A stretch of DNA of 64,000 nt from Pseudogemmobacter bohemicus (GTDB lineage Bacteria; Pseudomonadota; Alphaproteobacteria; Rhodobacterales; Rhodobacteraceae), in assembly GCF_003290025.1 (NCBI RefSeq), contig NZ_QNHG01000007.1:117741-181740 (forward strand), given 5' to 3'. The notes under the pieces were generated by a model. It ran no database searches. It was not told the origin of the DNA and saw nothing but the letters and a program-made list of their open reading frames with translations. Both the position numbers and the translations under genes were made by a program. This document shows positions 9,349 to 36,517 of the stretch, piece by piece. Every line of letters begins with the position of its first letter. The first letter of the stretch is position 1.

Positions 9349-10978
9349 TGACATCTTTACGGCAGGGCGCGGTCAGATCGAGGCCCGGGTTGCGCACCGA
9401 GGTACTGACATCCATCAGCCCCAGCACGGTATGGAAGAAATTGTCGTGACTGACGGGCTTTGCGGCCTCATACGCCAGACAGCTGCGGTCAAGCCCCATC
9501 ACCGCCGTGAACCGCGGGTCGAGCCAGAGGATGAAGGGGACTTTCACCTGCTCTGCCGGCGCCATGAACGAGGGCGCGGCATGCAGGTAAAGACCGTTCT
9601 CGCCCAGAGACTCGCCGTGATCCGACATATAGACCATGGCCGGGATCACATTCTGCGCATCCGCCAGCATGTCGATGGTGCTGGCAAGGACATGATCGGT
9701 CTCGCGGATCGAATTGTCATAGGCATTGACGATCTCTTCGGTGCTGCAATCGGCGAATTGCGCGGTCTCGCAGGCGGGGGAGAAACCGGCCCGCTCCGGC
9801 GCAGAGCGCAGGAAATAGGCGGGGCCATGGCTGCCGATCATATGCAGGACCAGCACCGTATCGCGGTCGATCCCGGCCAGGGTATCGCGGATTACCGGCA
9901 AAAGCGCCTCGTCGGTGCATTCGACCTTGCAGGCCTCCGGCGCCAGCGTCGCGTCGATCCTGGACCAGCCAGTGCGCTTTGCCACATTCTGATCGCCGGT
10001 ATTGTTGTCGGCCCAGAGCGGCCGGATCCCGGCCTGGCCGAGGATATCCATCAGATTCTCGCGCCCCAAAGCGGCCTCACGGCTATAGCCCGCCTGACCG
10101 AGCCCCGAGAACATGCAAGGCACCGATACGGCGGTCGAGGTGCCGCAGGAGGTGGCATCGGTAAAAGCGATCACATCGCGCTTTGCCAGCTCCGGCGTGG
10201 TGTCACGCGCATAGCCGTTCAGCCCGAAATTCTGCGCCCGGACGGTTTCGCCCACGAAAACCACCAGGAGAACCGGCTTGTCGGCACTGGCCAGCGCGGT
10301 TCCGGGTTTCGCATCCCGCCCCCAGGGCGCGGCAACAGGGTCGGCGGTCTTCCACTGCTCGCGGGCAAAGCGGATACCGGCGGTGAGACTGGCGCCCGGC
10401 TGATAGGCGCCCATCAGATCATGGCGCTCGCGCAGCATGGCCGAGTAATCCTTGTAATGGCTGAACAATGCCCCGACCATCAGCGCGAAACTCAGCGCCA
10501 CGCCGGTCGGCCAGCGCCAGAGCTGATGCACCAGCCCGACGCGGCGCACCTTCGGCCAGAAGACCAGCGCCGCCGGCACCACGCCGGTCAGGAAGATCGC
10601 CACCCCCATCCGCAGCGTTACCAGGTGGCGCGATTCCGTGTAGGTGGTCTCAAAGATGTTGCGCACCATCTCACGGTCGATCAGCACGCCGAAATTGCGC
10701 TCGTAATAGCTGGCGGCGGCCGCGACCATGATCAGGATCGCCGCCACCGGTTTTTGCAGCCGCCCGGGGCCAAACAGCTCCAGCGTCATCAGTGTCAGCG
10801 CCCAGACCCCGATCCCGAAGATCACCACCCGGCCGGGGGAGCCGGGAAACTGCGCCATGAGCCGCGACCAGAATCCGTGATTGAGCGCCAGCATCACCCA
10901 GCTGGAGATGAGGAGGTTCAGGGCGCTATGCGGGAGGACCGGACGCGGGATGCGCCGGAGAAAAGCGGGAAGGGGCAT
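9341..10978 (-). CDS. eptA: lipid A phosphoethanolamine transferase, EptA family (545 aa)
   Basis: It transfers phosphoethanolamine from phosphatidylethanolamine to lipid A at the periplasmic face of the inner membrane, lowering surface charge and binding of cationic peptides. The N-terminal half has about five membrane helices. The sulfatase-like domain shows the nucleophile region FVGETVRAQNF (Thr near 245), TSCGTSTAVSVPC, HMIGSHGPAY and the metal-binding SDHGESLGENGLYLH. I start at the ATG at 10978 because it gives the family length and a proper first membrane helix; the longer frame to 11521 runs antisense into the regulator gene. A two-component system is divergent to it. Confidence 0.88.
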   Translation of the reverse strand: MPLPAFLRRIPRPVLPHSALNLLISSWVMLALNHGFWSRLMAQFPGSPGRVVIFGIGVWALTLMTLELFGPGRLQKPVAAILIMVAAAASYYERNFGVLIDREMVRNIFETTYTESRHLVTLRMGVAIFLTGVVPAALVFWPKVRRVGLVHQLWRWPTGVALSFALMVGALFSHYKDYSAMLRERHDLMGAYQPGASLTAGIRFAREQWKTADPVAAPWGRDAKPGTALASADKPVLLVVFVGETVRAQNFGLNGYARDTTPELAKRDVIAFTDATSCGTSTAVSVPCMFSGLGQAGYSREAALGRENLMDILGQAGIRPLWADNNTGDQNVAKRTGWSRIDATLAPEACKVECTDEALLPVIRDTLAGIDRDTVLVLHMIGSHGPAYFLRSAPERAGFSPACETAQFADCSTEEIVNAYDNSIRETDHVLASTIDMLADAQNVIPAMVYMSDHGESLGENGLYLHAAPSFMAPAEQVKVPFILWLDPRFTAVMGLDRSCLAYEAAKPVSHDNFFHTVLGLMDVSTSVRNPGLDLTAPCRKDVIM

Positions 10979-11176
10979 TTGCCTGTCTTTCTTGCGCCGG
11001 CAGGGCCTGGCGAGGGTTGCGATCTGGCCGGTTACAGGCCGCTGATCCGCCGCTTTTCTGCCCCGAACCTTGCGCCTGGCTTGCAGAAGCCGCCCGCACC
11101 CTGGTTTTCCGCGCGGGCCACTGCCGGAATGTGCATTTTCCTCGCCTGACCTGCGGCCCGGCGCTATGCAGGGGCT

Positions 11177-11830
11177 ATGCGCCTGCTTCTTGTCGAGGAT
11201 TCCGCTGAACTCGCCGGCTCCGTGCTGCGCCATCTGGCGGTGGCGGGGCATGCGGTCGATCATGTCTGTGACGCGGCTGGCGCGCTGGCCGCGATGGCGG
11301 TGGGGGAGTATGCCTGTGTGATCCTGGACCTTGGCCTGCCCGACGGATCGGGGCTCGCGGTCCTGGTCGAGCGCCGCCGTGCCGGCGACCGCACGCCGGT
11401 GATCATCGCGACCGCGCTTGACCAGATCAGCGACCGTATCGCGGGGCTTGATGCGGGCGCAGATGATTATGTGGTAAAGCCCTTTGACCTTGCCGAGCTG
11501 TCGGCCCGCATCCGCGCCCATGCAAGGAGAGGCCAGTTCCTGCCGGAAACCCGGCTGCAGGTCGGCGATATCGAGGTGGACCGCGCGGCGGCGCGGCTGT
11601 GGCGCGGGGCCGAGGAGATCCGGCTGACCTCACGCGAATGGGCTTTGTTCGACGCGCTTCTTGGCGCGCGGGGGCGGGTGCTGGGCAAACCCGCGCTGGA
11701 AGAGGCGCTTTATAATTTCGATGCCGCGATCGAGGGCAATGCGGTCGAGGTCTATATCTCCCGCCTGCGCCAGAAAATCGGCGCCGGTATGATCGAGACC
11801 CGGCGCGGCCTCGGCTATGTGCTGACATGA
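11177..11830 (+). CDS. OmpR-family response regulator, PmrA/BasR-like (217 aa)
   Basis: The receiver domain (residues 1-115) has the acidic pocket Glu7/Asp8, phospho-acceptor Asp51 in VILDLGLPDGSG, and Lys in VVKPFD. The C-terminal winged helix (residues about 125-217) carries LTSREWALFDALL and a recognition helix ending NAVEVYISRLRQKIG. It is coupled to the kinase gene by an ATGA overlap and is divergent from eptA. By analogy with PmrAB-eptA it probably controls lipid A modification. I did not find a clear 11-bp direct-repeat box in the 198-bp region between it and eptA. Confidence 0.88.
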   Translation: MRLLLVEDSAELAGSVLRHLAVAGHAVDHVCDAAGALAAMAVGEYACVILDLGLPDGSGLAVLVERRRAGDRTPVIIATALDQISDRIAGLDAGADDYVVKPFDLAELSARIRAHARRGQFLPETRLQVGDIEVDRAAARLWRGAEEIRLTSREWALFDALLGARGRVLGKPALEEALYNFDAAIEGNAVEVYISRLRQKIGAGMIETRRGLGYVLT

Positions 11831-13092
11831 GCGCCGCCCGGAAACCCTGGTCGATCCGCCGCCGGCTGACACGGCGGGTTCTGTGGCTGGTGCTTTTGGC
11901 CTGGCTGGGGGCCATGGCGCTGGCGACCGTGTTTCTTGACAATGAAATCAATGAGATGCTGGATGAAGAGCTCCAGGCCATGGCTGAGACCACGGTGCTT
12001 TACATCGAGGCGAGCCCCGGCCAGGTGATCCCCCGGAATATCGGCACAGATCCGGGGAATGGCGAACGGGTGCTGCGCATCCTGCGCGCCGGCGATCCGG
12101 TGCCGGCCGCGCCCTGGCCCACGCTGACCACCGATGGTTTTCACGATCTCAACGACTGGCGCGTGTTGCGGGTGACGGCGGAAAACGCGGTGATCGAGGT
12201 CGCCCATAACGACGCCTGGCGGCGCGACGAGATGCTCGAGGCGGCCTCGGCCTTCCTTGTGCTGATCCTGCCGATGGTGGCGCTGCTGGTCTGGGGGCTG
12301 CGCCAGAGCCTCGCCCGGGGGTTCGCGCCGCTCGAAGCGCTGAGCGCGGGCATCGCCGCGCGTTCGCCCGCCGATCTCTCACCGGTTCCCGAGGCCGGCC
12401 TGCCGGATGAGCTGCATCCGCTGGCCAGCGGGCTGAACCAGTATATCGCGCGGATCGGCACCATGCGCGATGCCGAACGCGCCTTTGTCGCCAATGCCTC
12501 GCATGAGCTGCGCACGCCGGTCGCGGCGATCCGGGCGCGGCTTGACCTGTCGGATGACCCCGAAGCGCGGGGTGCGCTGCCGATGCTTGATGCACTGACG
12601 CGGCGGGTCGAGCGGCTCTTGCAGCTTTCACGCTCCGAGGCGGGTCTGGGCCTCGGGCGCGGGCCGGCGGATCTGATCCGGATCACCCGGCTCCTGCTGC
12701 GCGAGATCGGGTTGCGGGAGGCCGGATCGGGTCAGATCCGGTTCGACGATGGCGATCTTGAGACTTTGCCGGTGGCCGTAGACCCGGATGCGCTGGCGAT
12801 CCTGTTGCGCAATCTGATCGAGAACGCGGTCGGGCATGGCACCGGCCCGGTGCTGATCCGGATCGGCAGCGGGGCTGCGGCGCAGGTGCTGATCGAGAAC
12901 CCGACCAGCGGCACCGAATTCCACGATCAGGCCTTTGCCAAACGGCCAGGATCGACGGGGACCGGGCTCGGGCTGACCATCAGCGACCAGCTGGCCACCG
13001 CCATGGGCACAAGGATCAGCCGCCAGATCCTCGACGGGCGGGCGCGGGTGGAAGTCTCCTTCCCGCTGGCGGCCGTTCAAAGCCCGATCTGA
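11827..13092 (+). CDS. sensor histidine kinase, PmrB/QseC-like (421 aa)
   Basis: It is an inner-membrane kinase partner of the preceding regulator. Membrane helix 1 is at about residues 15-38, followed by a short periplasmic domain of about 90 residues and helix 2 near 140-160, then a HAMP-like linker. The phospho-acceptor His (near 225) is in NASHELRTP. The ATPase domain shows NLIENAVGHG and GTGLGLTISDQLATAMG. The start overlaps the regulator stop as ATGA. The 3' end overlaps the convergent hydrolase gene by 16 nt. The signal sensed cannot be told; cationic peptide or metal stress would fit the eptA neighbour. Confidence 0.85.
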   Translation: MSAARKPWSIRRRLTRRVLWLVLLAWLGAMALATVFLDNEINEMLDEELQAMAETTVLYIEASPGQVIPRNIGTDPGNGERVLRILRAGDPVPAAPWPTLTTDGFHDLNDWRVLRVTAENAVIEVAHNDAWRRDEMLEAASAFLVLILPMVALLVWGLRQSLARGFAPLEALSAGIAARSPADLSPVPEAGLPDELHPLASGLNQYIARIGTMRDAERAFVANASHELRTPVAAIRARLDLSDDPEARGALPMLDALTRRVERLLQLSRSEAGLGLGRGPADLIRITRLLLREIGLREAGSGQIRFDDGDLETLPVAVDPDALAILLRNLIENAVGHGTGPVLIRIGSGAAAQVLIENPTSGTEFHDQAFAKRPGSTGTGLGLTISDQLATAMGTRISRQILDGRARVEVSFPLAAVQSPI

Positions 13093-26231: not shown

Positions 26232-26770
26232 AACTGATCACCCCGGCATCCACATTAAGGGTCTGGCCGGTGATCCAGGCCGCGTCACCTGGTACCAGAA
26301 TCGCCATCAGTGCGCCTGGACCCACTTCCCCCCGGATCCGGCTCCGGTCGCGGCATGATGCCGCGTATAGAGGAAACTCTGCCGCGCCTGGCCGGATGCG
26401 GTGTTGATCGGCCACCCTTTGTGCCGCTGGCGCGGAAGCGCTTCACCGCCTCCTCGCAGCAGAGAAAAATACCTCAGGTGTTCAGATCGCGATGCAGATC
26501 CCATTCGCGGCCGCCCGGATCCTCGACTTTTTCGATGGTGAAGACCCCCGCATTCCACGCCGGGGCAGACAGCACCCAGTCTTCGCCTCAACACAGGCGT
26601 AAGCCTCTCAAGCCTGTTTCCGGGGGGCTTCGCCCTGGTTCCCGCCGCGATGTCGGGCGTATAGGTCTCGATCACGGTGACGGCGCCGCTGGCGCCTTTC
26701 CGGGGCGAAACAGGTGGCGACATCCGCGCCCGATCCGCTTAGTGCCCCTGCACCCTGAACCGCTTGCAGA
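26232..26770 (-). pseudogene. short-chain dehydrogenase/reductase remnant
   Basis: Scattered pieces of a short-chain dehydrogenase lie on this strand in shifting frames: GADVATCFAPE (cofactor region, near 26715), NAGVFTIEKVED (the NAG motif, near 26540), GIFLCCEEAVKRF and NTASGQ...YTRHHAAT (catalytic region with the Tyr-x-x-x-Lys lost), and WITGQTLNVDAGV (the usual C-terminus, near 26260). There are several frameshifts and stops. It starts its decay just upstream of ugpB and was probably a polyol or acyl reductase once. Confidence 0.6.
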
Positions 26771-28638: not shown

Positions 28639-28655
28639 TTTAAGCTCTGGTTAAG
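28639..28655 (+). promoter_or_regulatory. OmpR-type direct repeat, copy 1 (before L,D-transpeptidase 1)
   Basis: TTTAAG-CTCTG-GTTAAG places two TTAAG half-sites 11 bp apart, the spacing used by OmpR-family regulators and close in form to PmrA boxes. It lies 43 nt before the ATG at 28698. A near-identical copy precedes the second transpeptidase gene and a diverged one precedes the local two-component operon. Confidence 0.65.
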
Positions 28656-28697
28656 GTATGCGGGCAAGATCCGCCCGAAATATTCCGGAGTAGTCCC

Positions 28698-29417
28698 ATG
28701 CCCAACCTGTCCGGCGCCGCCTTTCTTGCGCTGTCGCTCTTTGCCATGACCGCCTGTGTGCCGGTCGAGCCGACGCCCACCGACCCGGCCGCCGCCGCTG
28801 CGGCCGCCGAGGCAAAGGCCGAAACCGCGCGCGCCGAGGCGCAAAGGCGCATCGCCTTTGCCCCGGTCAGCGGCGATGTGGCCGAGATGTATGCCGCGCG
28901 CGAGGATGGCGGCCAGATGATCGCCGGCATCGACCCGGCAAAGATGAACCCGGATCATGTCCGCCGTGTGATCGCATTCCAGACCGAAGAGGCTCCGGGC
29001 ACCATCATCGTCGATCAGGGTGCCCGCGTGCTTTACTTCGTGATGCCCGAAGGCAAGGCGCTGCGCTATGCGATCGGCGTCGGCCCGGATGCGATGCGTT
29101 TTGACGGTGGCGATGCGATCATCGACCGCAAACAGGCCTGGCCGCGCTGGATCCCCACCGCCGATATGGTGAAACGCAATCCGGGCCGCTACCTGCAATT
29201 TAAGGACGGAGTGCCGGGCGGTATCTCGAATCCGCTGGGCGCGCGCGCACTTTATATGCAGAAAGACGGGCGCGACACCTATTACCGGGTGCATGGCACC
29301 AATGACCCTTCCTCGGTGGGCCGTGCGGTTTCGGCAGGCTGTATCCGGATGCTGAACCAGGATGTGATTGATCTTCACGCCAGAGTGAGCATCGGCGCGA
29401 AAATCGTGGTGCGCTGA
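28698..29417 (+). CDS. L,D-transpeptidase (YkuD) lipoprotein (239 aa)
   Basis: It is a cell-wall cross-linking or protein-anchoring enzyme. A lipoprotein signal (FLALSLFAMTACVPVEPTP) is followed by an Ala/Glu-rich linker, then the YkuD domain (residues about 95-239). The catalytic region reads YYRVHGTNDPSSVGR, then AVSAGCIRMLNQDVIDL; His, Gly, Cys and Arg are all present. VDQGARVLYFVMPEGKALRY is the domain start. GGAG lies 7 nt before the ATG. It has its own operator-like repeat upstream and is followed by a second member of the same family. Confidence 0.9.
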   Translation: MPNLSGAAFLALSLFAMTACVPVEPTPTDPAAAAAAAEAKAETARAEAQRRIAFAPVSGDVAEMYAAREDGGQMIAGIDPAKMNPDHVRRVIAFQTEEAPGTIIVDQGARVLYFVMPEGKALRYAIGVGPDAMRFDGGDAIIDRKQAWPRWIPTADMVKRNPGRYLQFKDGVPGGISNPLGARALYMQKDGRDTYYRVHGTNDPSSVGRAVSAGCIRMLNQDVIDLHARVSIGAKIVVR

Positions 29418-29426
29418 GGCTGATGT

Positions 29427-29443
29427 CTTAAGCTCCGGTTAAG
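29427..29443 (+). promoter_or_regulatory. OmpR-type direct repeat, copy 2 (before L,D-transpeptidase 2)
   Basis: CTTAAG-CTCCG-GTTAAG matches copy 1 in 15 of 17 positions and has the same 11-bp half-site period. It lies 62 nt before the ATG at 29505. Its presence between two same-strand genes indicates separate transcription of the second gene under the same regulator. Confidence 0.65.
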
Positions 29444-29504
29444 GCCGGGGAGTGATCGGGGCAATCAGGGGCGGCAAACGCCCGTGACTGTAAGGAGAGC
29501 AGAG

Positions 29505-30080
29505 ATGAGCGATACCCAAATGCGCCGCCGGGCACTGCTGACCGGTGCCGCCGCGTTTGCCACCCTGGCGATGCCGGCGGTGCTGCGCGCCGAGAGCCAG
29601 GCATTGCCGGCCTATCCGCGGCACAATTCCTCGGGTTTCCGGATGCAGGACTGGCGCGACCATTTCGACAGCCTCGGCTCGGGGGTGATCGTCGCCGATT
29701 TCACCTCACGGGCGCTGCATTACTGGTCGGGGGACGGGACGGATTACCGCCTGTACCCCACGTCGGTGCCGTTGACCGAAGAGCTGACCAAACGCGGCTA
29801 TACCGAGGTGGTCCGCAAGAAAGTCGGACCGTCCTGGACCCCCACCGCCGATATGCGCCGCCGCGACCCGTCGCTGCCGGCCTTCCTGCCGCCGGGCAAG
29901 GACAATCCGTTGGGGACACATGCGATGTATCTCAGCTGGCCCGCCTATCTGATCCATGGCACCCATGACACGAGGAAGATCGGGCGGCCGTCCTCCTCTG
30001 GCTGTATCGGGCTTTACAATGAGCATATCCAGCAGCTTTTCGCCGTGGTGCCGATAGGCACCCGCGTGCGGATCATCTGA
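29505..30080 (+). CDS. L,D-transpeptidase (YkuD) with Tat-type signal (191 aa)
   Basis: This is a second YkuD enzyme. The N-terminus MRRRALLTGAAAFATLAMPA is a twin-arginine-like signal, so it may be exported folded. The catalytic region reads YLIHGTHDTRKIGRPSSSGC followed by IGLYNEHI; the Cys and upstream His are present, but the Arg normally after Cys-Ile is Gly. DFTSRALHYWSGDGTDYRLY is the domain start. AGGAG lies 8 nt before the ATG at 29505; an in-frame start 21 nt earlier lacks a ribosome site. It is convergent with the kinase gene 5 nt away. Confidence 0.87.
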   Translation: MSDTQMRRRALLTGAAAFATLAMPAVLRAESQALPAYPRHNSSGFRMQDWRDHFDSLGSGVIVADFTSRALHYWSGDGTDYRLYPTSVPLTEELTKRGYTEVVRKKVGPSWTPTADMRRRDPSLPAFLPPGKDNPLGTHAMYLSWPAYLIHGTHDTRKIGRPSSSGCIGLYNEHIQQLFAVVPIGTRVRII

Positions 30081-30085
30081 CCGGA

Positions 30086-31456
30086 TCAGGCGGCGGGCAG
30101 GATCAGCTCTGCCCGTTCGCCACCGCCGTCCCGCGGCGAGAGGCTGAGCCTGCCGCCCATCCGTTCCATCACCGCCGCAACGATTGCAAGCCCCAGCCCG
30201 CTGCCCTGCCCCGAAGGGCTTGAGGCGCCGCGCCAGAACCGCTCGGTCACATGGGCACGGTCGGAGGCCAAAATGCCGGGGCCACGGTCCAGCACGGTGA
30301 AGCGGACCTCTTGTGTATCGCAGGCCATGCTGGCCTCGACCACAGCCCCGGGGGGCGAGGCGAGGATCGCATTTTCGATCAGATTGCGCAAAGCCGGAGC
30401 CAGCAGCATCGCCTGGCGGGTGCGCCAGAGCCCGGTCGCAGCCCTGGTCTCAAGCCCCACACCGCGCTGCGCGGCCAGTCCGTGCAACCCCTCGGCCAGA
30501 TCGGCCAGCAGCCGGGCGCCATCCTGTTCCGGCCCGCTTTCACCGCTGGTCTCGGCGGCATTCTCGGCCGCCGTCATATCCAGCAGCTGGCGCACCATGC
30601 GGTCAGTCCTGGCCACCCCGGTCGAGATCTGCGCCAAAGCGCGGTTGCGGGTCGCCTCATCCGGCGCAATCGTCGCGATTTGCGCCTGGGTCTTCAGCCC
30701 CGCCAGCGGCGTCTTCAGCTCATGCGCGGCAAAGGCGGTGAAGCTGCGTTCCCGCTCGCGGGCGGAGTTCACCCGGCGAAACAGCCCGTTCAGCGCCGAA
30801 ACCATCGGGCGCAGCTCACGCGGCCCGGGCGGCAGATCAAGGGCCGAAAGATCGGTCGCCGGTCGCGCCGCCAGCCCCCGCGCCAACCGGTCAAGCGGCG
30901 CGAGACCGCGCCCCACCGCGAACCAGATCAGCGCCGCCAGCACCGGCAAAATGGCCAGAGCCGGCGCCAGCAGACCCAGAATCACGCCACGCACCAGCCG
31001 CTCGCGCATCGAAAGCGCATCGCCGACCATCACGCGGACCCCCAGTTCGGTGTCGATATGGGAATAGACCCGCCAGGTCTCTCCCTCGACCTCGCGTTCG
31101 GAAAACCCGGCCGCATCATCGGCCAGCCGCGCCCTGGGCGCCCCGTCGGATTCGCTTTTCAGCCGGCCGTCAAAGCCCCAGACCTGACAGATCAGCTCAT
31201 GCGAATAGCCCTCGGGGCCGCCTTCGGGCAGGATATGCGGCCGGGGATGCGCCAGTTTCTCCACCGCCTCGCCGACCACACCGCCATTCCGCGCAATCAG
31301 CGAGGCCACCATATGTGCGGATTCCTGCAGCCGGCGGTCCAGCACATGATTGACCTCCATTCGGGTCGAATACTGGATCCAGATCACGGCCGAGAGCCAG
31401 ACCACCCCGGTCGCCGCCATCAGGATCAGGAAAAGCCGCATCCGGATCGAGGACAT
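30086..31456 (-). CDS. sensor histidine kinase, QseC/PmrB type (456 aa)
   Basis: It is an inner-membrane kinase. Helix 1 (MRLFLILMAATGVVWLSAVI) and helix 2 (GVILGLLAPALAILPVLAAL) enclose a periplasmic domain of about 125 residues, in the QseC style. The His box is FAAHELKTPLAGL (His near 245), with NLIENAI, GPGI and GSGLGLAIV in the ATPase domain. The ATG at 31456 shares one base with the regulator stop (TGATG); a GTG one codon earlier is equally possible. It probably senses envelope stress, given the operator copies at the cell-wall genes next door. Confidence 0.85.
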   Translation of the reverse strand: MSSIRMRLFLILMAATGVVWLSAVIWIQYSTRMEVNHVLDRRLQESAHMVASLIARNGGVVGEAVEKLAHPRPHILPEGGPEGYSHELICQVWGFDGRLKSESDGAPRARLADDAAGFSEREVEGETWRVYSHIDTELGVRVMVGDALSMRERLVRGVILGLLAPALAILPVLAALIWFAVGRGLAPLDRLARGLAARPATDLSALDLPPGPRELRPMVSALNGLFRRVNSARERERSFTAFAAHELKTPLAGLKTQAQIATIAPDEATRNRALAQISTGVARTDRMVRQLLDMTAAENAAETSGESGPEQDGARLLADLAEGLHGLAAQRGVGLETRAATGLWRTRQAMLLAPALRNLIENAILASPPGAVVEASMACDTQEVRFTVLDRGPGILASDRAHVTERFWRGASSPSGQGSGLGLAIVAAVMERMGGRLSLSPRDGGGERAELILPAA

Positions 31457-32136
31457 CACGCCTGCCCCCCGGGCGATGTCCCGGGTGCCAGCCGGTAGCC
31501 CGCGCCCCGCACCGTCTCGATGAAATCGGGGCCGAGCTTTGCGCGGAGTTTGTGGATATGCACTTCGACCGTGTTCGAGCCGACCTCTTCCTGCCAGCCA
31601 TAAAGCCGGTCCTCAAGGAAAGCCTTGCCGAGGATCGCGCCGGGGCGCTCCATCAGGGCCTGGATCAGGGTGAATTCGCGGTTCGGAAAGACCACTTCGC
31701 GCCCGCCGATCGTGCCGCGCATCCGCGCCGGGTCGAGCGTCAGCCCGTTCCAGCTGAGCACGCCTTCGGCCCGGCCCTGGCGGCGCCTGAGGATCGCGCG
31801 CAGCCGTGCCGCCAGCTCGTCCAGCTCGAACGGTTTGCCGAGATAATCATCCGCCCCGGCATCAAGCCCCGCGACCTTGTCTTCCAGCCGGTCGCGGGCG
31901 GTCAGCAAAAGGACCGGCAGGTCGCTTTCCTCTGCCCGCATCTCGCGCAACAGCCCCAGCCCCGAGCCATCGGGCAGCATCAGGTCCAGTACCATCGCCT
32001 CGAAACTGCCCGCCGCCAGCGCCACACGGGCATCAGAAACCGAGCCCACCGCATCGGGCGAGAATCCGGCCAGCCGCAGCCCGACGCTGAGCCCGTCGCG
32101 CAAAAGGTCGTCATCCTCGACAATCAGGATCCGCAT
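31456..32136 (-). CDS. OmpR-family response regulator, QseB/PmrA type (226 aa)
   Basis: The receiver domain has Glu7/Asp8, phospho-acceptor Asp51 in MVLDLMLPDGSG and the Lys in LGKPFELDEL. The winged-helix domain contains FPNREFTLIQALMERPGAIL and the recognition part SNTVEVHIHKLRAKLG. I prefer the ATG at 32136; a GTG precedes it directly. The gene is followed by its kinase with overlapping stop and start. A direct repeat resembling those at the transpeptidase genes lies 41 nt upstream, suggesting autoregulation. Confidence 0.87.
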   Translation of the reverse strand: MRILIVEDDDLLRDGLSVGLRLAGFSPDAVGSVSDARVALAAGSFEAMVLDLMLPDGSGLGLLREMRAEESDLPVLLLTARDRLEDKVAGLDAGADDYLGKPFELDELAARLRAILRRRQGRAEGVLSWNGLTLDPARMRGTIGGREVVFPNREFTLIQALMERPGAILGKAFLEDRLYGWQEEVGSNTVEVHIHKLRAKLGPDFIETVRGAGYRLAPGTSPGGQA

Positions 32137-32176
32137 CACATCCCCGCATTTCCACCGGTGGCAATGCCCGGCCCGG

Positions 32177-32193
32177 ACTAAGCCATATTTAAG
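32177..32193 (-). promoter_or_regulatory. OmpR-type direct repeat, diverged copy 3 (before the two-component operon)
   Basis: Read on the minus strand this is CTTAAA-TATGG-CTTAGT: two CTTA-type half-sites 11 bp apart, 41 nt before the regulator ATG. It is less exact than copies 1 and 2, but the period and core agree. Confidence 0.5.
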
Positions 32194-32215: not shown

Positions 32216-34150
32216 TCACAGGCTTACCTGGGTGCCGATCTCGACCACCCGGCCGGCGGGAATGCGGAAGTAATCCTGGGCGCTGGCGGAATTGCGCGAC
32301 ATCCAGATGAAAAGCCGCGCCTGCCACATCGGCATCCGGGGCCGGACCGAGGGGCGCAGGCTGCGCCGCGACAGGATGAACGAGGTGGACATGATGTCGA
32401 ATTTCAGCCCCTTCTGCCGCGCCAGCAGTAAGGCGCGCGGCACGTCGGGGTCTTCGGCATACCCGTAATGCAGAAGGATGCGGCGAAAGCCGGGGGCGAT
32501 CTCCTCCATCCGCATCCGGGTCTCGTCGCTGAGGCGCGGCAGGTCGCGGGTCACGATTGACAGGATGATATTCTGCTCATGCAAAGCGCGGAAATGCTTC
32601 AGACTGTGCAAAAGCGCGACCGGCGCCTTGTCGGGGGAGGCGGTCAGGAAGACGGCGGTGCCGGGAACCCTTGCGATGCGGTCAGAACCGAGCTTGCCGA
32701 CCAGCGCATTCAACGGCAGCTGGCCCTCGCTCTCTTTGGCCAGCACGATGGCCGAGCCGCGCCGCCAGATCAGCATCACGACCAGCATCACCGCCGCCAG
32801 CGCCAGCGGCACATAGCCGCCATCCGCCACTTTCATCAGGTTCGACCCGAAGAAGACCAGTTCCAGCGCCACCAGCGGGCCAAGCACCGCAAGGATTGCG
32901 AAGGCTGGCCAGCGCCAGTGCCAGCGCACCACGACGACGGCCAGCAGCGAGGTCACCAGCATCGCGCCCGAAACCGAGATCCCATAGGCCGCCGCCAGCG
33001 CCGAAGAGCTGCCAAAGGTGATCACCAGCGCCAGCACACCGAACATCAGAAGGCCGTTGACCAGCGGAATATAGATCTGGCCCTGCTGTTCCTCGGATGT
33101 CTGGCGGATCTTCATCCTGGGCAAGAGCCGCAGCTGGATCGCCTGTTGCACCAGCGAAAACGCCCCGGTGATCACCGCCTGGGCCGCGATCACGGTGGCC
33201 ATCATCGCCAGCACCACCATCGGCACCAGCATCTGCGGCGGAAACATCAGATAGAACGGGCTCTCCAGCGCCTCGGGGCGGGTCAGAAGCTCTGCCCCCT
33301 GGCCCAGGTAATTCAGCATCAGGGCCGGGAAGGTCAGGTAAAACCAGCCGATCCGGATCGGGCGGGCGCCGAAATGACCCATATCGGCGTAAAGCGCCTC
33401 GGCGCCGGTGACGGCAAGGAAGACCGAACCCAGCACCGCCAGCGCCACACCCTGATGCGTCACCAGAAAGGTCAGCGCGTGATGCGGCGACAGGGCCGCC
33501 AGCACCTCGGGCGCCTCCCAGAGCCGCCATAGCCCGCCGGTGGCCAGCACCAGGAACCACAAAAGCATGACCGGGCCGAAAAAGCGCGACACAAGGTCAG
33601 TCCCGTGTTTTTGCACCCAGAAAAGCGCGATGATCACCGCCATGGCGACGGGTTCCACGAAGGGTTCACTGCCCGGCGCGATCAGCTTCAGCCCTTCGAC
33701 AGCCGACAGGACCGAGACCGCCGGCGTGATCACCGCATCACCAGAGAAAAGCGCCGCGCCAAGGATCCCCAGCACGACAAGCACCAGCCCCCGGCGCCCC
33801 CGCATCTGCCCAAGCGCGCGCTGCGCCAGCGCCAGCAGGGAAAGCGTCCCACCCTCGCCGTCATTATCGGCACGCAACAGGATCACCACATATTTGACCG
33901 AGACGATCAGCGTCAGCGTCCAGATGATCAGCGAAATCACCCCGAAGATATTCTCCGCCGGCACATGGCCGGGCCTTGCGCCGCTGGCCATCATCGCCTC
34001 GCGCAGCGCGTAAAGCGGCGAGGTGCCGATATCGCCGTAAACCACCCCCAGCACACCCAGCGTCAGCGCCGCCATCGCGGGCTTGCGCGCGACATGTGTG
34101 GCCTCGGCTGCATGATCGGCGGCAGCCGGGTCCAGCGCAATCTCTTGCAT
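32216..34150 (-). CDS. kup: potassium uptake protein Kup (644 aa)
   Basis: It is a K+/H+ symporter of the KUP/HAK family with about twelve membrane helices and a C-terminal cytoplasmic domain. The family pattern is clear: LGVVYGDIGTSPLYALREAM in helix 1, GEGGTLSLLALAQRAL, GDAVITPAVSVLSAVEG, and DMGHFGARPIRIGWF. Of several in-frame starts I choose the ATG at 34150, because AGGAG lies 7 nt before it; the ATG at 34156 sits only one base after that site. It is divergent from a KdpD/KdpE-like pair and shares its control region. Confidence 0.92.
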   Translation of the reverse strand: MQEIALDPAAADHAAEATHVARKPAMAALTLGVLGVVYGDIGTSPLYALREAMMASGARPGHVPAENIFGVISLIIWTLTLIVSVKYVVILLRADNDGEGGTLSLLALAQRALGQMRGRRGLVLVVLGILGAALFSGDAVITPAVSVLSAVEGLKLIAPGSEPFVEPVAMAVIIALFWVQKHGTDLVSRFFGPVMLLWFLVLATGGLWRLWEAPEVLAALSPHHALTFLVTHQGVALAVLGSVFLAVTGAEALYADMGHFGARPIRIGWFYLTFPALMLNYLGQGAELLTRPEALESPFYLMFPPQMLVPMVVLAMMATVIAAQAVITGAFSLVQQAIQLRLLPRMKIRQTSEEQQGQIYIPLVNGLLMFGVLALVITFGSSSALAAAYGISVSGAMLVTSLLAVVVVRWHWRWPAFAILAVLGPLVALELVFFGSNLMKVADGGYVPLALAAVMLVVMLIWRRGSAIVLAKESEGQLPLNALVGKLGSDRIARVPGTAVFLTASPDKAPVALLHSLKHFRALHEQNIILSIVTRDLPRLSDETRMRMEEIAPGFRRILLHYGYAEDPDVPRALLLARQKGLKFDIMSTSFILSRRSLRPSVRPRMPMWQARLFIWMSRNSASAQDYFRIPAGRVVEIGTQVSL

Positions 34151-34264
34151 CGTCATTCTCCTGGCCGACAAGGCGCGGGCGAGGAGCAGACCCCGCACGG
34201 CCCTGCGGCCTCACAGATCTGTGCTTTGCCGTGTAAGGAAGCGATGGGGAAAGCGGCAGGCGGT

Positions 34265-34281
34265 ATAAGGATCGCATAAAG
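34265..34281. promoter_or_regulatory. 11-bp-period direct repeat between kup and the kdpDE-like genes
   Basis: ATAAGG-ATCGC-ATAAAG (on the other strand CTTTAT-GCGAT-CCTTAT) is a tandem half-site pair with the spacing used by OmpR-family regulators such as KdpE. It lies 38 nt before the kinase start and about 115 nt before kup, so one bound regulator could serve both directions. Confidence 0.45.
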
Positions 34282-34319
34282 ATTGTGGACAAATCCCGGT
34301 TCCGGGGTTTCATCAGCGC

Positions 34320-35831
34320 ATGGAGCCTGTGTTCGTTACCCCTCCCGGCCCGCGTCCGGCCGGCCCCTTGTCAAAGCGTCCGGGCCAGATCCTGGCGGCG
34401 GCGCTGGTGCTGATCCTGGTGACGGCGATTGTGGTGCCCTCGCGCGGCTGGATGAGCGAGATCATCGCGCTTTTGCTTCTCCTCATGGCGGTGCTGGTCA
34501 ATGCGGCGGCCTTTGGCTTCTGGTCCGGGTTTGGATCGGCGCTGGTGGCGCTGGCGGTGTTCAACTTCTTCTTCATCGAGCCGCATTTCAGCCTGGTGGC
34601 GGCACGGCCGCAGGATATGGTCGTGCTGCTGGCCTTCCTTGCAGCGGCGGGGCTGACCGGGTTTCTCGCCGGGCGGATGCGCGAACAGGTGGACAGCGCG
34701 CGCGACCGGGCACTGGTGCTTGAGGTGCTGTCCTCGGCCAGCGGCGCACTTTCCCGCGCGACCAGTGAAGAGCAGATCCTGGAAGCCGTGATCCGCCATA
34801 TCGCCACGCTGTCGGAGGCGCCGGTGGCAGCGTTGAGCCGCAATTCCGACGGGTTGCGCCCGATCCCCGGCAGCCTGGTGCCGCGCCCGGCCGATCTGCA
34901 GGCGGCGGAACAGGCGCTGGCCCGCGGCCGGGTCGAGATCGCCATCGCCGATGGCTGGACCGGCTCGCATCTGACCTTCCATCCGCTGCCCCTCGGCACC
35001 GGGGCCAGCCATGCGATCGGCCATCGCCTGCCCGAGGCGGTGGACCGCGACAGCGTCTACCGCGAGCAGGCCATCGACACCGTGCTGCACCAGGCAGAGG
35101 CGGCGCTGGAGCGGCTGGAGCTGGGCCGAAAGGCCAACACGGAACGCGAGATTTCGGACCGCCAGGCGCTGCGGGCGGCACTGCTTTCCTCGCTGTCGCA
35201 TGATCTGCGCACACCGCTGGCAACCATTCTGGGCTCGGTCACCACCTTGCGCGATCTGCGGGACGGCCTGCCCCCCGAGGCGCAGGAGGACCTGCTGGGC
35301 GCCATTTCCGAAGAGGCAGGCCGCCTCGCGCGCTATGTCGAAAACCTGTTGCAGATGACGCGGCTGGTGGCGGGGTCCTCGGTCACGCTTCACCCGGTGG
35401 CGCCCGGCGATTGCGCCCGCGCCGCTGTCAGCCGGGCGCTGCGGGCTTTTCCCGATGCCAAGATCAGCGCCGATCTGCCCGAACTGCCACTGGTCATGGC
35501 CGAGGCGGGGCTGGTCGAACAGGTGATCTTCAGCCTGATCGAAAACGCGCGGCACTATGCGCCCGGGCCGATCCTCGTCACCGGCGCCACCGATGGCGAC
35601 CTGATCCGGCTTGAGGTGCAGGATCAGGGGCAGGGTCTGCCCGCGCCGGTCACCCAATGGCTTGCCACCCCCGACCTGACCCGGGGCGAAGAGAAAAGCG
35701 GTCTCGGCCTGCCGATCTGCAAGGGGATCGCGCAGCTTCTGGGCGGGCGGCTTGAGGCTGTGGCCGGCCCCGGCGCGCGGCTGGCGCTGATCCTCCCCAC
35801 CGCGCAATCCGCCGGGGTGCAGACCATATGA
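34320..35831 (+). CDS. KdpD-like sensor kinase lacking the N-terminal KdpD/Usp region (503 aa)
   Basis: It corresponds to the C-terminal part of KdpD: a DUF4118 block of four membrane helices (residues about 25-115, including FGFWSGFGSALVALAVFNFF), a GAF-like domain (about 140-260), a His kinase domain (LSSLSHDLRTPLATILGS, His near 294) and an ATPase domain (NARHYAPG, GLGLPICKGIAQLLGG). Full KdpD is about 900 residues and begins with a cytosolic KdpD/Usp module that is absent here. FNFFFIEPHFSL after the helices is a KdpD hallmark. It is coupled to the regulator by ATGA and divergent from kup. Confidence 0.85.
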   Translation: MEPVFVTPPGPRPAGPLSKRPGQILAAALVLILVTAIVVPSRGWMSEIIALLLLLMAVLVNAAAFGFWSGFGSALVALAVFNFFFIEPHFSLVAARPQDMVVLLAFLAAAGLTGFLAGRMREQVDSARDRALVLEVLSSASGALSRATSEEQILEAVIRHIATLSEAPVAALSRNSDGLRPIPGSLVPRPADLQAAEQALARGRVEIAIADGWTGSHLTFHPLPLGTGASHAIGHRLPEAVDRDSVYREQAIDTVLHQAEAALERLELGRKANTEREISDRQALRAALLSSLSHDLRTPLATILGSVTTLRDLRDGLPPEAQEDLLGAISEEAGRLARYVENLLQMTRLVAGSSVTLHPVAPGDCARAAVSRALRAFPDAKISADLPELPLVMAEAGLVEQVIFSLIENARHYAPGPILVTGATDGDLIRLEVQDQGQGLPAPVTQWLATPDLTRGEEKSGLGLPICKGIAQLLGGRLEAVAGPGARLALILPTAQSAGVQTI

Positions 35832-36517
35832 GCGCGCGCCAGCTGATCCTCGTCGTCGATGATGAGCCGCAGATCCAGCGCTTCCTCGTCCATGCGCTGA
35901 ATGCCTCGGGCTATGATACCGTGCTGGCCTCGACCGGCGCCGGGGCGCTGGAGGCCGTCGCGCAGCACAGGCCCGATCTGATGGTGCTGGATCTGGGGCT
36001 GCCGGATATGAACGGCAAAACCGTTATCGAAAAGCTGCGGGCGGATACGGACCTGCCGGTGATCGTGCTGTCCGCCCATGACCAGGAGATGGAGAAGATC
36101 CTGGCGCTGGATCTCGGCGCCAATGATTTCGTGGCCAAGCCCTTCGCCATCGGCGAATTGCTGGCGCGGCTCAGGGTCTCGTTGCGGCCAAAGCGCGGGG
36201 CAGGAGCGCCGGGCCTTTTGCGCAGCGGCAATCTGACGCTTTCACGCGATCTGCGCGAGGTCACCATCGCCGGCGAGACACTGAAACTGACCCCCAAGGA
36301 ATTCGACCTGCTGCTGGCCTTGCTGGAACAGCCCGACCGGATCGTGACCCATCGCCAGCTTTTGCTGCATGTCTGGGGACCGGCCCATGTCGAGGATATC
36401 GTCTATCTTCGGGTATTTATCGGGCAGCTGCGGCAAAAGCTGGAAGCGGCGGGCTTTGATGCCAGCGCGATCCGGACCGAGGCCGGCATCGGCTATCGCT
36501 GGATCAGCCCGGACTGA
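35828..36517 (+). CDS. KdpE-like response regulator (229 aa)
   Basis: The receiver domain shows VVDDEPQIQRFL and phospho-acceptor Asp55 in VLDLGLPDMNG, with Lys in VAKPFAIGEL. The winged helix has LKLTPKEFDLLLALLEQPDR and VLRVFIGQ-type recognition sequence (YLRVFIGQLRQKLE), as in KdpE. It overlaps the kinase stop as ATGA. A short palindrome CAATTC-T-GAATTG lies at 36525-36537 just after the stop. No kdpFABC genes are in the window, so kup is the only nearby K+ gene it could control. Confidence 0.86.
   Translation: MSARQLILVVDDEPQIQRFLVHALNASGYDTVLASTGAGALEAVAQHRPDLMVLDLGLPDMNGKTVIEKLRADTDLPVIVLSAHDQEMEKILALDLGANDFVAKPFAIGELLARLRVSLRPKRGAGAPGLLRSGNLTLSRDLREVTIAGETLKLTPKEFDLLLALLEQPDRIVTHRQLLLHVWGPAHVEDIVYLRVFIGQLRQKLEAAGFDASAIRTEAGIGYRWISPD

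Follow-up and report, generated by a model that had tools for sequence, protein, structure and literature searches.

Which regulator controls the two adjacent L,D-transpeptidase (LDT) genes of Pseudogemmobacter bohemicus, and to what signal would it respond? The question is raised by a stretch of 64,000 nucleotides (positions 117,741 to 181,740 of contig NZ_QNHG01000007.1, hereafter the window), in which each LDT gene is preceded by a direct repeat of 11-bp period, the box, and in which genes for a response regulator (RR) and a sensor histidine kinase (HK) lie beside them. The original prediction gave the box to this PmrA/QseB-like neighbor, an assignment that conservation, co-occurrence and helix/operator covariation support. 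It is very probable that the boxes are operators of the adjacent RR/HK system and that this system controls the LDT genes; binding, activation and signal are what we infer from sequence comparison, and an envelope-stress role of the system is suggested on the same basis. The elements concerned are the following.

28639..28655, plus strand: putative operator 1, TTTAAG-CTCTG-GTTAAG, 42 nt upstream of the LDT1 ATG
28698..29417, plus strand: LDT1, YkuD L,D-transpeptidase (Pfam YkuD, 60.4 bits)
29427..29443, plus strand: putative operator 2, CTTAAG-CTCCG-GTTAAG, 61 nt upstream of the LDT2 ATG
29505..30080, plus strand: LDT2, YkuD L,D-transpeptidase (Pfam YkuD, 68.9 bits)
30086..31459, minus strand: HK, sensor histidine kinase with 2CSK_N, HisKA and HATPase_c domains; Cys91 (LICQVW) lies in the 2CSK_N sensor domain
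31456..32136, minus strand: RR, OmpR-type response regulator of a PmrA/QseB-like clade, recognition helix SNTVEVHIHKLR
32177..32193, minus strand: putative operator 3, degraded and autoregulatory, CTTAAA-TATGG-CTTAGT, 40 nt upstream of the RR ATG ending at 32136

The three box sequences and their coordinates had been predicted exactly, and the claim that the window holds no other such pair stands: with at most one mismatch, TTAAG-N6-TTAAG matches at operators 1-3 only. YTTAAG-N5-GTTAAG with up to two mismatches gave four matches (a count that takes in 29427 once per strand and also 26587) for 0.65 expected, and none of 100 shuffles reached four; the looser TTAAG-N6-TTAAG with up to two mismatches gave 11 matches, a number reached by 7 of 100 shuffles and hence not significant. 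Scored with a matrix built on 31 sites of other genomes, part of them homologous sites of two close relatives, the LDT boxes obtained 25.0 and 22.1 bits, far above all else in the window. Operator 3 was the next distinct place (7.4 bits in the plus reading, 5.4 bits in the minus reading), narrowly ahead of an unrelated place at 26587 (7.0 bits). All three boxes are retained in Paracoccus sp. IB05 and Pseudogemmobacter faecipullorum, and operator 1 stands at the equivalent place in loci L041 and L042.

Exact YTTAAG-N5-STTAAG occurs in the two LDT promoters and nowhere else in the 5.6-Mb source genome. The reversed pattern, which is not matched for base-step content, was found 3 and 4 times, so that the number of boxes shows no excess and it is their position that is informative; TTAA-N7-TTAA is likewise not in excess (14 places, against 33 for its reverse). 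We rejected a wider regulon in this genome, since five further places with one mismatch adjoin genes of other kinds, as judged by eye except for that of a SPOR protein. The boxes found there are those of the two LDT genes and the weak one of RR only. YkuD places number 20 in this genome, a count that includes one pair on contig C5 three times (six places). Downstream of the box, weak preferences were seen at fixed positions, and we do not claim a conserved -10 element.

How the box is used elsewhere was analyzed from 80 retrieved loci with LDT1 relatives, most of them from Hyphomicrobiales and many from Methylobacterium relatives; 51 hold an RR of the same clade and 29 are RR-negative, and more loci were added later. 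Regulators were assigned to the clade at a cut-off of 190 bits, alignments of fewer than 180 residues being left out, which gave 64 clade RRs outside the window and 65 with it. CTTAAG-N5-CTTAAG stands 34-64 nt upstream of their own start in 60 of the 64 (57 exact, 3 with one mismatch), as 13 distinct sequences, and these boxes are conserved across genera and orders. A comparable box was found for 1 of 12 lower-scoring RRs. The autoregulation that had been proposed for this locus is well supported at the level of the clade; in P. bohemicus itself it is weakly indicated, because its own box is degraded (three mismatches).

The genes behind the boxes were examined in a list of 60 boxes from 37 loci other than the window (TTAAG-N6-TTAAG, either strand), for which not every genome was scanned for all forms and which omits the window's two boxes and one box shown twice (L181/L182). 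The gene that follows is RR for 25 boxes, LDT for 14, Dsb or TlpA-like proteins for nine, ccoN for four, and another or no clear gene for eight; 52 of the 60 thus stand beside RR, LDT, Dsb or cbb3 genes. Boxes are therefore conserved before LDT genes, as the original prediction had anticipated. For L065 and L101 the assignment to LDT depends on longer open reading frame starts, and the L223 LDT starts 195 nt away. RR boxes often lie in a divergent promoter common to DsbD, DsbA-like or LDT genes, and two of them are shared with a divergent LDT gene, beyond the 14 LDT boxes without RR. LDT2 is boxed in seven genomes, that of the window and those of L041, L042, L181, L185, L190 and L191. The other genes include a sulfite-oxidase-like gene, a cytochrome c and a DsrE-like gene; the SoxC-like and cytochrome references were taken from loci that they matched, and both were counted as other. 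DsbD-like genes were present in 44 of the 51 RR-positive loci versus 1 of the 29 RR-negative ones, all 80 having been found by LDT1 similarity.

Two further observations concern these genes. A box precedes ccoN of the cbb3 oxidase in four genomes (L181, L183, L217, L101), which hints at a connection with oxygen, copper or sulfur. Near or behind some boxes there are rhodanese, metallo-beta-lactamase, TauE, DsrE and sulfite-oxidase-like genes; this persulfide or sulfur theme is only a hint, because a persulfide-dioxygenase-like reference (one sequence) matched none of the 51 RR-positive loci.

Box and regulator also occur together in a survey of 149 genomes of the family that is free of LDT selection, an RR ortholog being defined by at least 65% identity. 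All 7 other genomes that have an RR ortholog (65-80% identity; G006, G026, G047, G051, G088, G091 and G138) carry the perfect box, and none of the remaining 141 does (Fisher p about 4e-12, without correction for kinship); the source genome has the asymmetric form only, with no perfect symmetric box. YTTAAG-N5-STTAAG in any form was found in 43 of the 149. At 30 of these loci, one per genome, which were searched with LDT, Dsb and RR references, the LDT, DsbD or at least 60% RR matches were confined to genomes with an RR ortholog, and the genomes lacking one gave one distant RR match (34%) and one TlpA-like match. In addition, 26 genomes hand-chosen from the 80 loci contain 38 perfect boxes versus 5 for the reversed pattern. 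Two genomes without RR ortholog carry an identical box many times, CTTAAGGAACCGTTAAG repeated 7 times in G066 and CTTAAGTCCAAGTTAAG repeated 9 times in G034, perhaps as part of a repeat or mobile element.

CtrA was our initial idea and is a serious rival, since its site, TTAA-N7-TTAA, has the spacing of the box: the boxes would be CtrA sites, and the transpeptidases would belong to the cell-cycle regulon. CtrA is encoded in the source genome (419.7 bits, C1:1143870), where the LDT boxes are 2 of the 14 TTAA-N7-TTAA places and others (L001, L004 and L009) precede a transglycosylase, a PAS/HisKA kinase and a SPOR protein; furthermore, the accessible part of PMC11527210 proposes in silico CtrA motifs of atypical spacing 5' of several Agrobacterium LDT genes. 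However, CtrA is present at E <= 1e-80 in 139 of the 149 family genomes and cannot explain a perfect box found in just the seven with an RR ortholog, of which G006 has box and RR and no CtrA match at 1e-80. Boxes moreover stand 5' of the RR gene itself, and RR reaches only 144 bits with the CtrA model, below the cut-off of 350. As the distribution follows RR and not CtrA, we set CtrA aside as owner of the box and regard this explanation as very unlikely; it is a poor rival, which may nonetheless cross-bind at the boxes. Some sites of the L001/L004/L009 type end in TTAAC and may be genuine CtrA sites.

A second possibility is that the system is a genuine PmrAB/QseBC ortholog, in which case the LDTs would simply belong to a response of the cationic-peptide, iron or quorum type. 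RR has the domain order of PmrA/BasR (receiver and Trans_reg_C), with the kinase gene adjacent and an 11-bp-period repeat 5' of its own gene (three mismatches in this species), and its helix reads NTVEVHIHKLR where PmrA has NTLEVHIHNLR. The PmrA box likewise consists of half-sites one turn apart. The best named matches of RR are PmrA (229.3 bits) and QseB (210.2 bits), and that of HK is QseC (210.3 bits), with the 2CSK_N sensor domain in common. Yet all these scores fall far below the curated cut-offs (330 in NCBIfam for PmrA, 345 for QseB, 475 for QseC). The kinase is not that of PmrA, and the genes marked by boxes in relatives are others, mostly RR, LDT, Dsb and cbb3. HK further differs from QseC by a clade-specific periplasmic cysteine, found at residue 91, in the numbering of the window's HK, in 64 of 64 clade kinases (the window's included) within the motif QL(S/T)CQ(I/V)W or close to it; no kinase was found for L256, and the non-partner kinases in L065 and L069 did not align at this position. 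It was not seen in the 10 outgroup kinases listed, of which eight have I, Y, F or R, one a gap and one is unaligned, the alignment at this position being less sure because these kinases are 28-34% identical. Finally, the EptA/EptB-like gene of the window adjoins the second OmpR-type regulator (RR2, 11177-11830) and not RR. Orthology thus appears highly improbable, and of the QseBC/PmrAB-like label in the original prediction we keep a presumably PmrA-like reading of DNA, the system being neither PmrA nor QseB by scores. The EptA/EptB-like phosphoethanolamine transferase gene (9503-10978) is divergent from RR2 and a kinase-like gene (11177-13092), and the RR2 pair, rather than RR/HK, looks like the PmrAB-like lipid A system of the window.

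In all likelihood RR is the best candidate to bind the boxes. The 65 clade RRs form a monophyletic group (FastTree support 0.90), which a looser cut of 71 RRs does not, and His occupies PmrA position 195 in every one of the 65. According to the available portion of PMC4660055, the base contacts of PmrA are Thr187, Asn188, Val192, His195, Asn196 and Arg210. RR has Ser187, Asn188, Val192, His195, Lys196 and Arg210 at these positions; Ser187 and Lys196 are changed, four of the six residues are identical and one change is conservative. RR hence combines contact residues of the PmrA type with a TTAA-type repeat whose period is 11 bp. Sister RRs provide the comparison, 25 of which were picked by their Ser-type helix (L174 and L260, also Ser195, were left out). 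Within 150 nt upstream, CTGACG-N5-CTGACG with up to two mismatches was found for 21 of 25 sister RRs versus 0 of 64 clade RRs, and CTTAAG-N5-CTTAAG with at most one mismatch for 0 of 25 versus 60 of 64. That helix and operator change together is the strongest non-experimental sign for binding of the box by RR.

The Ser195 sisters (L160-L180, L261-L266) have their CTGACG direct repeats in many cases 72-87 nt upstream, eight of them at exactly 77 nt, and we read these repeats as another operator code used by the same fold. The original prediction had also suggested RR2 as a possible binder, but although it lies in the same window and shares 44% identity with RR, we set it aside as an extremely unlikely owner, given its sister-type Ser-Arg helix (Gly187, Ser195 and Arg196, versus Ser187, His195 and Asn/Lys/His196 in the clade), the CTGACG-type repeats that mostly accompany Ser195 regulators, and the lack of a box 5' of its gene, where every CTTAAG or CTGAAG pair in 10901-11200 has at least five mismatches.

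Several observations weigh against RR/HK as owner of the boxes. His195 is insufficient alone, as only L268 among seven His195 regulators outside the clade has a box with at most one mismatch. Four of the 64 clade RRs (L183, L184, L190, L192) have no box of their own, their genomes keeping boxes elsewhere. Nor are the 64 independent of one another, for LDT1 similarity led to the loci of 51 of them, and close Methylobacterium relatives are numerous. Sampling across the class showed the perfect box in 30 of 289 genomes and an RR match at 1e-55 in only 2 of these 30 (G206 and G428, with the box about 1.3 kb from the match), so that the pattern is not confined to this system; conversely, a perfect box is missing from 12 of the 14 genomes that have such an RR match, most of these matches lying outside the clade. 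Operator 3, with three mismatches to CTTAAG-N5-CTTAAG, is weak taken alone; the site aligned to it is perfect in L041 and L042 (in Paracoccus sp. IB05, CTTAAGTCTGGCTTAAG), because of which it looks like a decayed copy and not a fortuitous match. Lastly, a full DsbD was not found by Pfam in the source genome, the sole DsbD_N match being a 271-aa protein without box, and the thiol arm of the system is therefore missing or elsewhere in this species.

With RR/HK as the very probable owner, we propose that phosphorylated RR recognizes a pair of 6-bp half-sites spaced by one helical turn, of the CTTAAG-N5-CTTAAG type, and that bound RR would activate LDT1 and LDT2 rather than repress them. RR would also regulate its own gene through its box in most relatives, and probably more weakly here because the RR box is partly decayed. 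HK would sense a condition that modifies thiols, be it an oxidant, copper or reactive sulfur, and the response would replace or repair single-cysteine transpeptidases; the boxes of relatives also precede DsbD, DsbA-like, TlpA-like and, in four genomes, cbb3 genes. A thiol-modifying signal seems the most likely one because LDTs act through one cysteine and the clade kinase has an invariant periplasmic cysteine, and a thiol-active signal would also be the simplest reading of boxes that precede Dsb genes in relatives and of targets that are single-cysteine transpeptidases.

LDT1 has two cysteines only, Cys20 in a lipobox-like context (by eye) and Cys215 in SAGCIRM, which by family would be the catalytic one. 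The single cysteine of LDT2 is Cys167 in the catalytic motif SSGCIGL, and its N terminus is twin-arginine-like (by eye); after the Cys-Ile of the motif LDT2 has Gly and LDT1 has Arg. The DsbG protein of E. coli protects such transpeptidases, according to the accessible text of PMC3526765, citing Depuydt 2009, and copper inhibits LDTs, to judge from a title in the reference list of PMC12729407. The system, which we propose responds to thiol or metal stress, probably guards cysteine-dependent wall enzymes. Going further, we tentatively consider an alphaproteobacterial thiol surveillance, a possible though doubtful model in which the lone periplasmic cysteine of the kinase would stand in for the LDT catalytic cysteine; once it is oxidized, metallated or persulfidated, RR would induce LDTs and Dsb repair reductases and, in some species, the cbb3 oxidase and sulfur genes.

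Among known systems, Cpx of E. coli, which controls LdtD, is likewise a two-component system whose envelope response takes in an L,D-transpeptidase, as described in the available part of PMC12729407, with a regulator other than RR. DsbG/DsbD of E. coli involve the same partners, Dsb reductases and transpeptidases (accessible portion of PMC3526765), but there the link is protein chemistry, whereas here it would be an operator-defined gene set. UzcRS of Caulobacter resembles the present system, by description only, as a two-component system that responds to metal and acts on genes of the envelope (PMC12864828, in part). We found no paper matching this system among open-licence PMC papers, the sole literature covered. 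RR and its box thus constitute a concrete candidate regulator and operator for alphaproteobacterial LDTs, for which an in silico CtrA motif had previously been proposed before Agrobacterium LDT genes (PMC11527210, part available). That one operator would front both transpeptidases and periplasmic thiol reductases fits the protection chemistry of E. coli DsbG, and Cys91 is a single residue through which the signal could be tested. Next to the locus, at 32216-36517, a Kup-type potassium transporter gene adjoins genes for a KdpD-C-terminal-like kinase and a KdpE-like regulator.

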